Positions 8,718 through 64,000 of a stretch of 64,000 nucleotides of DNA are shown here, one piece after another. How positions within the stretch are numbered: position 1 is the first letter of the stretch; each line of letters opens with the position of its first letter. The DNA comes from an uncultured bacterium (lineage in GTDB: Bacteria > Cyanobacteriota > Vampirovibrionia > Obscuribacterales > Obscuribacteraceae): NCBI GenBank assembly GCA_903835185.1, contig CAILLX010000082.1, positions 1 to 64,000 of the forward strand, read 5' to 3'. Under the pieces are notes generated by a model. That model was not told the origin of the DNA. It did not search any database and saw only the letters and a list, made by a program, of their open reading frames with translations. The translations under genes were made by a program, and so were the position numbers.

Positions 8718-8915
8718 TACCCTTGCGTCCCTCGCCAAACCTGCTTAAGCAATATCTTACCGAGGTAGCCTTAACTGCTCATTGAAGAACTCTTACTTTT
8801 ATCGATGGCAATTTACCTGCAGGTTGCACAGATTGAAAAACTATAAAGGGTAAGAAACTGGCCGCTCGGACAGTGATAATAGTATGCCTTGGTATTTCAC
8901 TGGAGAACACTTCTC

Positions 8916-10469
8916 ATGTTATCTGAATTTCGAAATGAATCTTTTACCGACTTTTCCTGCCCTGTCAATCAAGAGGCGATGGTCTCTGCGATTGCTTATG
9001 TCAAGACGCAGCTTGGCAAAGAGTATCCGCTGGTCATAGGCGGTGAGGCGGTTGAAAGTAGCGCTGCAATCATTTCGACTAATCCTGGGGCTCCTCAAGA
9101 GGTGGTAGGCCGGTTTGCCAAGTCCACGAGCCAGAGCGCTGAAGCAGCAATGCAAGCTGCTCTTTCTGCTTTCCAGAGCTGGAGTAAGGTTCCTGCTGTG
9201 CAAAGAGCACGTTGCCTTCTTAAGGCAGCAGCTATTATGCGACGTCGCCGTCTGGAGCTGGCAGCCTGGATAATCTGCGAGATTGGTAAGAACTGGGTAG
9301 AAGCTGATGCTGATGTAGCTGAAGCTATTGACTTCTGCGAGTTCTATGCTCGCGAAATGATTCGCATAAGCCAGCCGCAGCCTCTTGTTCCTTCTGACGG
9401 AGAAGAGAATGACCTTACTTATCTGCCGCTTGGGGTAGGCATTGTCATTCCACCCTGGAATTTCCCGCTTGCTATTCTGGTTGGAATGACCACAGCTTCT
9501 ATCGTGTGTGGCAATACTGTTGTACTAAAACCATCCAGTGAAACGCCTGTTATCGGTTATCAGTTTGTCAAAATCATGGAAGAAGCTGGTTTGCCACCAG
9601 GTGTAATTAATTACCTGCCTGGATCCGGTTCTGAAGTTGGTGACTTCCTGGTGCAACATCCCAAAACCAGATTTGTAGCATTTACCGGCTCAAAGGAGGT
9701 CGGGCTGAGGATTAATGAGCTGGCAGCCAAGACTCAGTCAGGACAGATCTGGATCAAACGGGTTGTCTCTGAGATGGGTGGCAAAGATTCAATTATCATC
9801 GACTCTGGTGTTGATGCCGATCTGGCTGCCGATGGCATTGTCGCCTCAGCTTTTGGCTTCCAGGGGCAGAAATGTTCGGCCTGTTCGCGTGTGATTGTGC
9901 ATAAAGATCTTTATGATCAGGTTCTCGCAAAGGTAGTTGCTGGAACAAAGAAGATAGTGGTGGGACCTGCTGAAGATAAGCGGACTTTTATGGGTCCTGT
10001 AGCTTCGCAGTCAGCTTATAACAGCATCCTCAAATATATTGAGATTGGCAAGAAGGAAGGCCGTTTGATGTGTGGTGGAGAAGCAATCAGCACTGCTCAA
10101 GGCGGCTTTTTTATCCAGCCAACTGTAATTGCTGATGCCAGTCCCACAAGTCGCATTGCCCAGGAAGAGATTTTTGGACCGGTGCTTACTTTCATAAAAG
10201 CGAATAGTTGGCAGCAGGCATTGGAGATTGGCAACAATACTGAATTTGGACTGACCGGTGCAGCCTACTCCACAGATCGCCGCCATCTGGAGCAGGCGCG
10301 GGCAGAGTTTCATGTAGGCAATCTTTATTTGAACCGTAAATGCACCGGAGCGCTGGTTGGTATCCATCCATTTGGTGGTTTCAACATGAGCGGCACCGAC
10401 TCTAAAGGTGGCGGCAGGGATTATCTGTTGCTCTTTACGCAAGCTAAAGTTGTATGCGAGCGTTTTTAG
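8916..10469 (+). CDS. rocA: L-glutamate gamma-semialdehyde (1-pyrroline-5-carboxylate) dehydrogenase
   Basis: About 517 residues from the ATG at 8916, which has TGGAGA 10 nt upstream; an earlier in-frame TTG (8889) is less likely. It is an aldehyde dehydrogenase with GIVIPPWNFPLA (NAD site), KPSSETPV, FTGSKEVG, the general-base motif SEMGGKDS, and the catalytic Cys in GFQGQKCSACSR, the form typical of RocA/PruA2 enzymes. It oxidises glutamate semialdehyde to glutamate with NAD, the second step of proline and arginine catabolism. No proline dehydrogenase gene is in the window. A strong terminator hairpin follows the stop. Confidence 0.9.
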   Translation: MLSEFRNESFTDFSCPVNQEAMVSAIAYVKTQLGKEYPLVIGGEAVESSAAIISTNPGAPQEVVGRFAKSTSQSAEAAMQAALSAFQSWSKVPAVQRARCLLKAAAIMRRRRLELAAWIICEIGKNWVEADADVAEAIDFCEFYAREMIRISQPQPLVPSDGEENDLTYLPLGVGIVIPPWNFPLAILVGMTTASIVCGNTVVLKPSSETPVIGYQFVKIMEEAGLPPGVINYLPGSGSEVGDFLVQHPKTRFVAFTGSKEVGLRINELAAKTQSGQIWIKRVVSEMGGKDSIIIDSGVDADLAADGIVASAFGFQGQKCSACSRVIVHKDLYDQVLAKVVAGTKKIVVGPAEDKRTFMGPVASQSAYNSILKYIEIGKKEGRLMCGGEAISTAQGGFFIQPTVIADASPTSRIAQEEIFGPVLTFIKANSWQQALEIGNNTEFGLTGAAYSTDRRHLEQARAEFHVGNLYLNRKCTGALVGIHPFGGFNMSGTDSKGGGRDYLLLFTQAKVVCERF

Positions 10470-58458: not shown

Positions 58459-59778
58459 TCAATCCTTCTCATTGTGAGGGGAAGCGGCAGTGGGACTGAG
58501 CCAGATCCACCAGGTGGATGCTGCCAGACAGAGAGCATAGATAGCAAACGGTTGAGTGGGGAATGCCGGGAGTGTTCCAAGTAGGAACAGAAGCCAGCTG
58601 GCAGGAGGGAAAGCGAGGATGAGTGTTCGCAGGATCTGGTGCTTTTTGTCTTGAGTGGCGTCTTGCTCGGCAGCTGCAAGATAAAGCCACAAACCAGGCA
58701 GAACCAGCAGACAGTAGTCTTGAGTATGAGTGTGAACGCTGAAAAGAAGCATGATTATGGTGCTCAGTGTAGCGCAGATGGCGAAGGACCAGCTTGTTCT
58801 TTTGCTCAGGTGGGCAAACGGTTTGGTCCAGAAAAATCCTACTGCAGCTGCGCTAAATAGGCATCCGGCTGCTGCTATGATCTGTGTTAAGCGAGTGTCG
58901 CCACCAAGCAAAAGGCATAAGATGCCGCGCAGGTTTTGCTGGTGTTGGGCAGCTACTCCGCTGTATTGAGCCGTTGTTTCTGCGTGTGAGATTATGCGTG
59001 TCCATTCAAGGCAGTTATCCCAGCCAAGAAATAAGATGCTGATAAGCACAGCTACACAGGCGGCTATCAGACATCCGCAAGTATAGCGAAAACGTCCCAG
59101 TACAACTCCGCAGATAATTGCAAAAGGCAGATACTGAATCTTGATCATGAGAAGGAAAGTTGCCAGACCGGCTGTCCAATAGCGCCTCTGCCCCAGCAGC
59201 CACCAGAATAGAGCCATGCCTGCCAGAAAGAACAAGCTGGTCTGTCCCAGCTCGAAAGTGAGCCAAACAGGATAACTGCAAGCGACAGCAGCCACTGTCA
59301 GCGCTCGTGACAAGCGGCTGCTGAGATGTCTGCCAGTTGTGCCCAGCACTACGGCTAGCAAACATATGACTCCAGATAGATTCCAGAAGATCCACGACCA
59401 CTTGAGCGGCAAGAATGTCAGCGGTGTACAGAGAACAAAAAAGAGCGGCGGGTACTGAAGATAAAAAGGTATCTCGGCAACAACTGGTGCTGTGAGCCTT
59501 GCTACTGCAGCTGCCTGAACCTTCGGGTCGTAAATATTTATCCCTGTCTGTTTTGCGCTCAGACCGAACTGACCGGCAGCATAGTAGTCAACAAAGTCAG
59601 CAATGTACGGTCTGCCGTTAATTTTGCGAGTAAGAAGGTTGCCTTCTTGCCACCAGTTTATAAGAAGAATATACGAGTTTAATGACCAGCACAAAAGGAA
59701 GGAGGCATAAGCAGCCCACAGCAGTTTGCTCCTGGAGCTGTTTACATGTCTGTGCCTGCCGTCAGCGGATAGGTTCAT
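58459..59778 (-). CDS. GT87-like (DUF2029) polyprenol-linked mannosyltransferase
   Basis: A 439-residue membrane protein with about ten helices. The first extracytoplasmic loop has DFVDYYAAGQFGLSAKQTG and IYDPK, and the next FYLQYPPLFFVLCTPLTFLP: an acidic residue pair early in the loop and the YPP motif mark the GT87/DUF2029 family. Members move mannose or related sugars from a polyprenyl carrier to envelope glycans. The sugar here is not predictable. It follows the Ser/Thr kinase gene by 21 bases, and has no obvious ribosome site, so it may be translated by reinitiation. Confidence 0.8.
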   Translation of the reverse strand: MNLSADGRHRHVNSSRSKLLWAAYASFLLCWSLNSYILLINWWQEGNLLTRKINGRPYIADFVDYYAAGQFGLSAKQTGINIYDPKVQAAAVARLTAPVVAEIPFYLQYPPLFFVLCTPLTFLPLKWSWIFWNLSGVICLLAVVLGTTGRHLSSRLSRALTVAAVACSYPVWLTFELGQTSLFFLAGMALFWWLLGQRRYWTAGLATFLLMIKIQYLPFAIICGVVLGRFRYTCGCLIAACVAVLISILFLGWDNCLEWTRIISHAETTAQYSGVAAQHQQNLRGILCLLLGGDTRLTQIIAAAGCLFSAAAVGFFWTKPFAHLSKRTSWSFAICATLSTIIMLLFSVHTHTQDYCLLVLPGLWLYLAAAEQDATQDKKHQILRTLILAFPPASWLLFLLGTLPAFPTQPFAIYALCLAASTWWIWLSPTAASPHNEKD

Positions 59779-59799: not shown

Positions 59800-61809
59800 T
59801 TATCTGTTGTTGTTCGCGTTGTATGTATTCTGCTCGATCAAGGTTGCCTGCTGAAAAAGGGTGCGGGAATCTGCAACCCGATTAGTCTGCTGGAGAAGAT
59901 CTGCATAGCTGCGCAGGCACAATAAGAGAATGTCTTTGCTTCCCCGTAATTGCCTGGCTACTTGCAAAGCTTCACCCAGTTCTGTCTGAGCAGCCTTGAA
60001 GTAGCTTCTATCAAGATCAAACTGTCCTAGCTTATTGAGAGCGCGGGCGTATTCTGCTGGATTGTCGCGCAGATGTCTCTTGCGAATCTGGCAGGAGTCA
60101 ACGAGCAGCTGGCGCACTTGCGGATACTTGTTCAGAGCAATAAGGCTGTCAGACAAAATAGTTGACAGCTTCGCTACTGCCAGAGAATCGTCGCCGAGAA
60201 GAGTTTTATCAACAGAAAGCGCCCTGGTAAGCAGCTGCTCTGTCTCCTTGTAAAGCCCCCGACCTAACAGTTTTGAGGCAGTGGAGGCAATGTTGGGAAG
60301 CTGTGCCTCGGCTCTCAATCTGAGGCTGCTTGCACGCACCGCCGAGGATTCCGGTTGGCTTAGTTGATTAAGCAGATCGAGTTGCCCCCGGAGTTCTTGC
60401 CTTAACAGCTCTGTTTGAATTGTGGCAATTTCGTTGTGAGCCTTCTCCAGATCTTCTGCGTGCCCTTCCCACTTGCCATAGAGGTCTGACTTGTGCCTGA
60501 GTGTGTCCTCCAGCCGCAATTTGGCATCTCCAAATGTGCGTGCTTTTGATTCTGCAGAGACAAGCATACTTTCGGCATAAGGAAAGTTGTGCGTCCTCAC
60601 TGCAGTCTCTGCTTCTGCCATTAAGATTTTCCATGCCAGTGTGTCAATAGTGTTGCTCTGGTCACCTGAAGGTCCTGTCCAGTAAGCCAGAAAGGTTCCA
60701 CAGACAACAAGAAGTGAGACAGCTAAAACAGCTATTACAAGCGATGCTGATGGCTGGAAACGCTTTGCAGAGTACGGTGTGTACTGCAAGTTGATGTTAT
60801 CCTGACGTTTCTTTAGACCGAACAGTGTCGTGGCAATTTGACATAGAATCTCACCTGCCGCTGCTGCTGTCTGGCAGCGTTGGCTGGGATTCTTGGCTAT
60901 ACAGCGCAGAACTAACTCCTCTAGCTGTGGCGGTACCTTGGCTTCGGGAGCTACTTGAGATATTGCTTTTGGTTCCTCGCCTACATGCTTATTCATTGTG
61001 ATTAGGAAACTTTCGCCTTTGAATGGTGGAGAGCCGGTCAGTGTCTCATACATCAAACAGCCAAGAGCATAGATATCTGTGCGAGCGTCAAGTTGTTGTC
61101 CCAGGCATTGTTCTGGGCTCATGCATGCAGGGCTGCCAAACACTTCACCAGCGCGAGTTAGCTGCTGTTGTTCCCGTCCTGACTGTGGAAGCATCTTGGC
61201 GATGCCAAAATCGACCAGCTTGACCAGGTAAGTGTTGTCTGGCTGCTTCGTTAAGAGGACATTGCCAGGTTTGAGGTCGCGATGGACTATGCCGTGGCTG
61301 TGTGCTGCTTCCAGTCCGGAGCAGATCTGCATGAATATTGGTAGAGCTTCCTGACAGCTTATTCGTCCCTGCCGCTCTATTGCCTCCTGGAGGGTTTCGC
61401 CTTCCAGGCAGTCCATGACGAAGAATGGTTCGGCCTCCGGAGTTACTCCAAAATCGTAAACAGTGACTATATTTGGGTGATTGAGCGAACTTACAGCTTC
61501 TGCTTCCTGCTTGAACCGTCCCAACGCTGATGTGTCAGTCTTCAGGCTCTTATGCAGCATCTTGATGGCCACCAGGCGATTCATCAGACGGTGCCGGGCT
61601 TTGTACACAATACACATGCCACCGACGCCTAGCACAGACTGAATTTCGTACCTGTCGGCAAAAACTTTGCCTATGAGCGGATCATTCTTGGCGCGTCGGA
61701 GCTGTGTACCATCGTCCGGGCACATAGATAAGGATTCCTCAAACTGTCTATAGCAGCTCGGGCAATACCGTTTTTCGCCTGTGGACTGCCGGCTTGATGG
61801 TTTTGACAT
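59800..61809 (-). CDS. Membrane Ser/Thr protein kinase with zinc ribbon and TPR-like sensor domain
   Basis: A 669-residue protein. An N-terminal zinc ribbon (RYCPSCYRQFEESLSMCPDD) precedes a Hanks-type kinase (residues about 48-305) with GVGGMCIVYKA (glycine loop), AIKML (catalytic Lys), IVHRDLKPGNVLL and LVDFGIAK, so it is catalytically complete. One membrane helix (LVIAVLAVSLLVVCGTFLAY) is at about 355-377. The extracytoplasmic 290 residues are helical with TPR-like units (LTRALSVDKTLLGDDSLAVA, YARALNKLGQFDLDRSYFKA). It probably senses an outside signal and phosphorylates cytosolic proteins. It is co-transcribed with the GT87-like gene. Confidence 0.92.
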   Translation of the reverse strand: MSKPSSRQSTGEKRYCPSCYRQFEESLSMCPDDGTQLRRAKNDPLIGKVFADRYEIQSVLGVGGMCIVYKARHRLMNRLVAIKMLHKSLKTDTSALGRFKQEAEAVSSLNHPNIVTVYDFGVTPEAEPFFVMDCLEGETLQEAIERQGRISCQEALPIFMQICSGLEAAHSHGIVHRDLKPGNVLLTKQPDNTYLVKLVDFGIAKMLPQSGREQQQLTRAGEVFGSPACMSPEQCLGQQLDARTDIYALGCLMYETLTGSPPFKGESFLITMNKHVGEEPKAISQVAPEAKVPPQLEELVLRCIAKNPSQRCQTAAAAGEILCQIATTLFGLKKRQDNINLQYTPYSAKRFQPSASLVIAVLAVSLLVVCGTFLAYWTGPSGDQSNTIDTLAWKILMAEAETAVRTHNFPYAESMLVSAESKARTFGDAKLRLEDTLRHKSDLYGKWEGHAEDLEKAHNEIATIQTELLRQELRGQLDLLNQLSQPESSAVRASSLRLRAEAQLPNIASTASKLLGRGLYKETEQLLTRALSVDKTLLGDDSLAVAKLSTILSDSLIALNKYPQVRQLLVDSCQIRKRHLRDNPAEYARALNKLGQFDLDRSYFKAAQTELGEALQVARQLRGSKDILLLCLRSYADLLQQTNRVADSRTLFQQATLIEQNTYNANNNR

Positions 61810-62051: not shown

Positions 62052-62081
62052 AGAGGTGTAACACAAGGGCGAGGCTTAACT

Positions 62082-62855
62082 ATGGATCGCAGAGATAAAG
62101 AAATTGCGCGCGATGTGGCCAATAGACTGTTTCAAGGCGATGAGACAGGCGCCACAACCGAAATTTAGGCTGAATTGAATAAGTACCGGTCTAGCCCCAG
62201 GGGTGCTCAGGATTTCCTCAATGCAGTCAGGGCTTTTGAAGGGAAAGAAGAAGCGGACTCCAATCGCAGGGGAGCGGAGCACCTGGTCGAGTGGAAGTAC
62301 AGAGAGTACCCAAACCTCACAGCTGTTGCAATCCAGCGAGGCGAGAGCATGGCAGCGTACCGAGGGATTGTTGGGATAATTAACCAGCATACAGCAGGGT
62401 ACTACGATAATACTCAATATAATCGCAGCGATAACATTCAAGTTAGCCCCCAGTCGGGGCCAGTATATGTCCGGCAGGGATATTCTACTGATCAGTATGC
62501 TGGGCAGGTATCTGTTCAGCAAGTTGCCGATCCGAACGATTGGCGACAAGAGAGTGGGCAGGACTCTGGGCGACCAGTCGAACAGCCGCTTACCTCTCCT
62601 CGTTATCAGGTAAATCCTGCCGATGCCACATTATGTGGAGTGCCAAGCTACTATCCATATGGTGGAGTGTCATTCTCCGTCCCCATACAACGTCCAGTAC
62701 CTCCCATCCCGCCGTATGACGGTGGCTACTATGGCAATCTGAACAGTGGCTATTACAACCCAAACTCTGGCAACCAGTTCAATTTAGTTGTTGGATCTGG
62801 ATCTAGGAGTGGTTGGCATGGTGGTTGGCGTGGTGGTCTACACATTAGCTTCTGA
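62082..62855 (+). pseudogene. Gene interrupted by an in-frame TAG at codon 29 (tyrosine/glycine-rich protein)
   Basis: ATG 62082 has GGCGAGG upstream and opens MDRRDKEIARDVANRLFQGD, and continues to TTEI and then TAG (62166-62168). After the TAG the same frame runs on without a break as AELNKYRSSPRGAQDFLNAV to 62855. The best explanation is a CAG (Gln) to TAG change, since EIQAELNKY would be a continuous helix. A TTG at 62175 could restart translation but has no ribosome site. The first 90 residues are helical; the rest is Gln/Tyr/Gly/Pro-rich and probably disordered (YYGNLNSGYYNPNSGNQF). It may be a pseudogene, a sequencing error, or a suppressed stop. Confidence 0.7.
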
Positions 62856-63038: not shown

Positions 63039-64000
63039 CTAGGGTGTCGAGTCGCAGAGAAGGTCCATATGCTCTTTGACTCCGAGCTCAAAAGCTGCCA
63101 GTTCGTGCGAGACTCTAGTATCATCCCATTTGACCAGTTGCCTCATCAGAGCGGCTACTTTAGGTGCCGATTCCAGACACTGCTTCTGGTGGATTACGCC
63201 GAGGCGCAGGCGGCGCATTAGGAGATCTTCTAAAGACACTGCCATCTCGTGGCGGACGCAGAATGGTACTTCAGCCATAATTGGCGGGAAGTCTGGGCAG
63301 ATACGCTCGGACAGTGTTGGATCAGCTTCAACTATATCGACGATGAGCTGCGCGTCGGCGCCGTAGCTGGATATAAGATGATCGAGTGTGGCTGGTTCAA
63401 GTGAAAGCCGCCTGGCTTTAACTGAAATGGCAGCTGTTGATGCGAGAAAATCTGACTTGTCCCTAAAGCTGCCCAGCATCATTCTGTCTGTTCTGGAAGG
63501 ACGGCTCGGGGCATCTGGCAGTTTGATCGCTGCCCGGTCGACCACTTCCTGGGCCATCAATCGGTAGTTAGTGAGTTTGCCGCCTATGAGCCCGATTATT
63601 CTGCCCGGACCTTCGAAGACCATGTGCTCTCTGGACATGTTTTTTGTGTCCGAGCTTGAGTCATCTGTCTCTACAAGCGGTCGCAATCCGGCGAAGGAGC
63701 CGATTATGTCGCTGCGGTTGAGCTTGTGTGTTTCGGTGAAGCTGTTAACAGTTTCAAGCAGGTAATCTATCTCGTCCCGGTCAGGCATAGGCTTATCGAG
63801 CTGTCCTGTATAAGCTATGTCTGTTGTGCCGATCATTAAAGTTTGTTGCCAGGGCACGACAAACACATATCTGCTGTCAGTTGTAGGTAAGAACAGTGCT
63901 GTGTTAGTCTCAAAAGCCGATGGTGGCACTATGATATGAATTCCTTTAGACGGCTTAACATGGCTTCCCCAGGATTGGTTGACCAGGCGGTAAACATCAT
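63039..64000 (-). CDS. glpD: FAD-dependent glycerol-3-phosphate dehydrogenase (N-terminus beyond window)
   Basis: The minus-strand frame runs through the right edge of the window. The part seen, about 320 residues, begins DVYRLVNQSWGSHVKPSKGI, then IHIIVPP, WQQTLMIGTTDIAYTG, GSFAGLRPLVE, HMVFEGPGRIIGLIGGKLTN (FAD-binding) and the C-terminal helical domain (AEVPFCVRHEMAVSLEDLLM, RRLRLG). These are features of aerobic GlpD, which oxidises glycerol-3-phosphate to dihydroxyacetone phosphate and passes electrons to quinone. That fits a respiring host. A GTG at 63929 is internal, not the start. Confidence 0.93.
   Translation of the reverse strand, partial: DVYRLVNQSWGSHVKPSKGIHIIVPPSAFETNTALFLPTTDSRYVFVVPWQQTLMIGTTDIAYTGQLDKPMPDRDEIDYLLETVNSFTETHKLNRSDIIGSFAGLRPLVETDDSSSDTKNMSREHMVFEGPGRIIGLIGGKLTNYRLMAQEVVDRAAIKLPDAPSRPSRTDRMMLGSFRDKSDFLASTAAISVKARRLSLEPATLDHLISSYGADAQLIVDIVEADPTLSERICPDFPPIMAEVPFCVRHEMAVSLEDLLMRRLRLGVIHQKQCLESAPKVAALMRQLVKWDDTRVSHELAAFELGVKEHMDLLCDSTP

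Follow-up and report, generated by a model that had tools for sequence, protein, structure and literature searches.

An in-frame amber codon inside a putative helical domain of an uncultured Obscuribacteraceae bacterium

Why does a reading frame that is otherwise open carry an amber codon at its 29th position? The question is raised by the 3' end of a stretch of 64,000 nucleotides (the window, here always the whole stretch that was analysed) from contig CAILLX010000082.1 (74030 bases) of the genome GCA_903835185.1. An earlier note, made from the letters of this DNA, had described a ribosome site, an ATG and 28 codons leading to TAG, with the same frame continuing for 229 codons, and had offered a recent pseudogene, strain variation, a sequencing error or amber suppression as explanations.

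The reading frame around the stop

The layout of the locus could be read directly in the sequence, where the ribosome site, the ATG and the TAG (codon 29) were found as described, and the 229 codons of the continuing frame proved to be 228 sense codons plus the final stop (TGA, 62853-62855). The features are as follows.

62071..62074, + strand: ribosome-site-like GAGG, 7 nt 5' of ATG 62082 (read in sequence)
62082..62168, + strand: ATG, 28 codons and in-frame TAG (sequence; codon signal; 12.2 bits with the relatives-only profile)
62106..62249, + strand: putative N-terminal helical domain, residues 9-56 aligned, broken by the TAG at residue 29 (31.6 bits with the relatives-only profile)
62166..62168, + strand: premature TAG, in the predicted second helix (sequence; two structure models of modest confidence)
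62169..62855, + strand: remaining frame, with the second half of the putative domain, a tail rich in Gly, Pro, Tyr, Gln and Ser, and TGA (open frame, composition)
62167..62177, + strand: candidate restart, AGG overlapping the stop, 5 nt, TTG 62175 (sequence)

At the base composition of the window, a stop-free run of 229 random codons has a probability of about 1.7e-5 per trial, and the region 3' of the TAG contains 0 stops in this frame versus 4 to 14 in each of the other five. When both strands of the whole window were searched for the same shape (20 or more codons from an ATG, a stop, then 200 or more open codons in frame), it occurred at 2 places, the second of which (9527, - strand) lies antisense to a long open reading frame (ORF) at 8889-10469. 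Long ORFs ending in TAG (12 in the window) meet the next TAA or TGA in frame after only 2 to 38 codons. Upstream of the TAG, the 28 codons had a signal of coding use of 0.374 bits per codon, the best of six frames and at about the 90th percentile among 653 28-codon pieces taken from the window's long ORFs. This codon signal was weak 3' of the TAG (0.045 bits per codon) and fell to -0.009 in the last third of the frame, where one + and one - frame score higher. The tail also has an unusual composition. A promoter and terminator scan gave matches on the minus strand only, in about the number seen in shuffles.

A domain on both sides of the stop

The gene had no match in Pfam or NCBIfam, PHROGs gave nothing convincing, and the best match among solved structures (E 0.0059 over 29 columns of 7bqq) was unconvincing. 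A full-length search of 60 genomes, its own included, returned the gene itself and one marginal tail match in genome G004 (E 0.009), and a search of the contig collection with the query protein gave 20 pattern matches, 0 of which were confirmed. Relatives were gathered with the N-terminal part of the product. Residues 1-105, with X at the stop, were compared with 50 genomes of the family, among which none other belongs to the window's genus, and, the query aside, yielded 14 weak matches (E 0.011 to 0.87). Three small proteins that aligned across the stop, from + strand loci of G034, G009 and G020 (E 0.07, 0.40 and 0.87), were chosen by eye as seeds, and matches in 957-969-residue frames of G060, G061 and G062 (E 0.011 to 0.20) were excluded as coiled-coil-looking, a judgement made from G062 only. 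The profile of query and seeds matched 32 of the 50 family genomes (E <= 0.5), including the query's own, in which the query itself was the sole match. One of its 51 matches was the query; 39 of the other 50 were examined, and the 11 outside this set were either weak or incomplete matches, of which one (G028:C320, E 0.46) has an internal TGA. With three partial matches dropped (L103, L104, L111), 36 relatives were used; a profile without the seeds holds 33 of them, and profile A3 holds 19 of the 36.

These relatives, all distant, have in common a stretch of about 55 residues close to the N-terminus (19-member consensus xxxEAxxxAxxLDxGxxxxAAxxLRxDLxxMxPxxFxxLVxxTxxxExKGxGAD), followed by tails highly diverse in length and composition. 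The relatives-only profile (36 members, query excluded) scored 31.6 bits against residues 1-65 of the query, a score reached by 0 of 2000 shuffles (best 10.4 bits). The parts 5' and 3' of the stop taken alone scored 12.2 and 11.8 bits, respectively, again with 0 of 2000 shuffles as high in either case. Without the three seeds the scores were 30.3 bits for the whole, 12.3 before the stop and 10.6 after it, the last being reached by 1 of 2000 shuffles. Since each side outscores shuffles on the relatives-only profile, both sides of the stop appear to belong to one domain. The alignments show the stop to lie inside this putative domain, which the relatives keep whole: at the aligned position the 36 relatives have Arg (22), Gln (4), Ser (3), His (2) or Leu, Gly, Thr, Asn and Ala (1 each) and no stop, and a stop inside the domain occurs in 0 of the 87 matches to A3. 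The C-to-T change from CAG proposed in the earlier note is not established by this comparison, in which Arg stands at the position in 22 of 36 relatives and Gln in only 4, and no close intact orthologue was found.

The query's own match to the domain is not a fully independent test, because the profiles that gathered the relatives contained the query and the seeds entered at E 0.07 to 0.87. How strongly the domain stands out among the relatives alone is independent evidence. Profile A3, which contains no query, matched the domain 87 times in the 146 genomes searched from the class, and the 32 genomes with a match all belong to the window's own family; at E <= 1e-4 no match was found in 3 genomes of the same order or in 94 more whose kinship is not shown, and the window's own genome was likewise absent at this threshold. 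Alone against A3, the query scored 23.3 bits (E 4e-4 for a chosen set size of 150000), and it is a divergent member of the family. Named genomes with the domain, from a scan with three relatives, are Candidatus Obscuribacter phosphatis, a Candidatus Obscuribacterales bacterium and a Candidatus Melainabacteria bacterium; the match in the first of these is identical over 96 residues to that of G027, a member of the window's family, so the window very probably derives from the family to which Ca. Obscuribacter belongs. Alignments A3 and A4 offered no stretch sufficiently conserved for such a scan. Pfam searches of the 19 members gave only single chance-like matches (best E 0.011). The domain (members L066, L067, L069-L085, L087-L089, L092, L096-L102 and L105-L110) occurs in several copies in many genomes, and seven proteins have two copies in one open frame (G061:C136, G062:C35, G060:C63, G063:C190, G032:C531, G012:C46 and G009:C18).

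The relatives also bear on where the gene begins. An in-frame ATG lies at most 40 residues before the domain in 34 of 36 relatives and at most 16 residues before it in 31 of 36, and in the query the profile match begins at residue 9 from ATG 62082. Because of this placement, together with the codon signal of the 28 codons, ATG 62082 is likely the natural start and the TAG premature. Orthologues starting only after the position of the stop, the result that the earlier note named as a refutation, were looked for among the relatives and not found, and the idea of a premature stop in an otherwise intact gene gains support from a domain that spans the stop and relatives that start upstream of it.

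Structure models built without relatives and with three relatives place helices at about residues 3-18, 21-36 and 39 onward with modest confidence, the rest being low (mean pLDDT 36.6 without relatives and 56.3 with three, residues 1-50 in blocks at 70 to 77). The second helix covers residues 26-36 in the former model and 21-34 in the latter. The stop thus falls in the predicted second helix, and a 28-residue peptide would therefore lack most of the domain.

Origin of the stop and alternative readings

The surroundings of the gene are consistent with an accessory gene. It is flanked on one side by a protein kinase with TPR repeats (59800-61809, - strand) and on the other by a gene matched to DAO_C (63039 onward, - strand), which we take to be glpD. 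(Kinase domains are frequent in this 4.35 Mb genome, with 33 matches to Pkinase, PF00069, at E <= 1e-10, several of them paired on one contig.) In G020, G016 and G066, too, relatives of glpD (63039-63998, - strand) and of a membrane protein (58459-59778, - strand) are separated by a few kilobases. A glpD gene was present in 45 of the 50 genomes of the family, and of 30 glpD loci that were fetched 29 are related; in these 29 the domain gave a single, unconvincing match (2.6 bits, E 0.66), and five longer stretches beside glpD held nothing over 0.3 bits. In two stretches whose ORFs were listed, other genes occupy the space from glpD to the membrane protein, so the locus between the two is a variable spot, which fits a dispensable gene. 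As no convincing member of the domain family was found at the 29 related loci or in the five longer stretches, we infer that the gene is accessory and that it would be no surprise to see it lost through a single nonsense change.

We hypothesize that the stop is a recent nonsense allele of such a dispensable accessory gene, which is the likeliest explanation and probably the correct one. The gene would belong to a set of family-restricted accessory proteins, built from an N-terminal domain of three predicted helices and a variable tail, and would have gained one nonsense mutation in the middle of that domain. Translation from ATG 62082, which has a good ribosome site, would then be terminated at codon 29 by release factor 1, leaving a 28-residue peptide without most of the domain. 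The position of the stop and the normal decoding of the rest of the genome suggest that this is in effect a null allele, either fixed in the lineage or present as one variant within the sampled population. A single lesion with 228 open codons behind it points to a recent event. Among the four explanations of the earlier note, a recent pseudogene or strain variation is thus the pair that we favour. The stretch was matched once in its own genome and therefore a second strain copy was not assembled.

The first alternative, a consensus or assembly error in a metagenome-assembled genome whose real gene is intact, is unlikely, though the likeliest of the rivals. The genome is fragmented (4350214 bases in 243 contigs, completeness 85.25, contamination 4.48), and a single substitution would account for everything in a frame that is open otherwise. 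Against this, none of the 27 ABC_tran matches and none of the 33 Pkinase matches in the same genome has an internal stop (0 of 60 together), and stop-making errors are therefore uncommon in it. Among the glpD matches of the family, 0 of 54 had a true internal stop, the one flagged TAA being an ordinary gene end. A deep short-read consensus seldom contains substitution errors, which also counts against an error if this genome is of that type. The TAG is probably real.

Less likely again is that ribosomes restart at TTG 62175 and make a 226-residue protein, so that the gene still works in part. An AGG (62167-62169) stands 5 nt from a TTG (62175-62177) in the right frame, a terminating ribosome would sit beside this TTG, and the frame behind the stop carries no lesion, perhaps a sign that some product is still being made. 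However, the short AGG site and the TTG are both weak, the product would be without the first predicted helix and the first half of the domain, and no examined relative starts there instead of upstream. It is improbable, too, that the stop is put to use. Here a 28-residue leader would end at a TAG inside the ribosome site of the TTG restart, or the TAG would sometimes be read through, so that two forms would be made, a long one that keeps the helical domain whole and a short one that lacks the first helix, in a ratio set by termination.

Very improbable is readthrough of UAG, by a suppressor tRNA or as a programmed event, into a whole 257-residue protein. The long open frame behind the stop would suit it, yet the genome encodes release factor 1 (TIGR00019, 504.7 bits, cut-off 423.25), its best match to the pyrrolysyl-tRNA synthetase model PylS_Cterm reaches 31.2 bits versus a cut-off of 178.15, and the RNA 3' of the stop is not more stably folded than shuffles (z 0.62). 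There were 46 tRNA-like matches, of which 38 were over the cut-off and all named by ARAGORN, and a CUA anticodon was found in 0 of these 38; the list is incomplete, because His and Tyr tRNAs are missing from it in this incomplete genome, and a suppressor could be missing in the same way. (The lowest-scoring of the 38 is a tRNA-Leu with an AAG anticodon at G000:C207:32293-32372, L058; this anticodon is unusual for bacteria.) In the window TAG terminates 12 of the 44 long ORFs. The absence of internal stops from all 60 conserved domain matches weighs against readthrough as it does against error. As far as the sequence can tell, the counts indicate neither a reassignment of UAG nor a high error rate, and the suppression proposed earlier finds no support in the release factor, the tRNAs found, the synthetase or the conserved domains. 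Finally, that there is no gene and the frame is open by chance is hardly credible: the frame lacks a Pfam or NCBIfam match and a full-length homologue and its tail has a weak codon signal, but the domain matches beyond shuffles on both sides of the stop, a ribosome site and an ATG stand where relatives usually have their start, and so long an open run is rare by chance.

Significance and known systems

A broken accessory gene matters chiefly for annotation: gene callers would either overlook it or place its start at TTG 62175, which cuts away the first half of the domain. Such a gene is an ordinary finding. More useful is a by-product, the uncatalogued family of a small helical domain that occurs widely within one family of non-photosynthetic bacteria related to cyanobacteria and that may matter more than the gene itself. 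If the stop is real in the reads and peptides cross it, the locus would become a test case for the decoding of UAG in an uncultured lineage. The part of the literature available to us yielded no report on stop codons in Vampirovibrionia, and we do not assert that the domain is undescribed.

With regard to known systems, the locus resembles cases of amber recoding (pyrrolysine, suppressor tRNAs or reassigned UAG) in its in-frame TAG and the long open frame behind it. The genome differs from such cases in having release factor 1, no CUA tRNA found, no PylS over the cut-off and TAG as an ordinary stop. With the members of its own family (L073, L118, L119, L120 and others) the query shares the domain of about 55 residues near the N-terminus, the variable tail and an ATG a few residues upstream, whereas it is divergent and the sole aligned member with a stop in the domain. 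Recent pseudogenes and strain-polymorphic nonsense alleles are known kinds in bacteria. Although the query differs from them in that no intact orthologue is close enough to date the change, it is like them in its one in-frame stop, its otherwise open frame, its intact relatives and its place among accessory genes.
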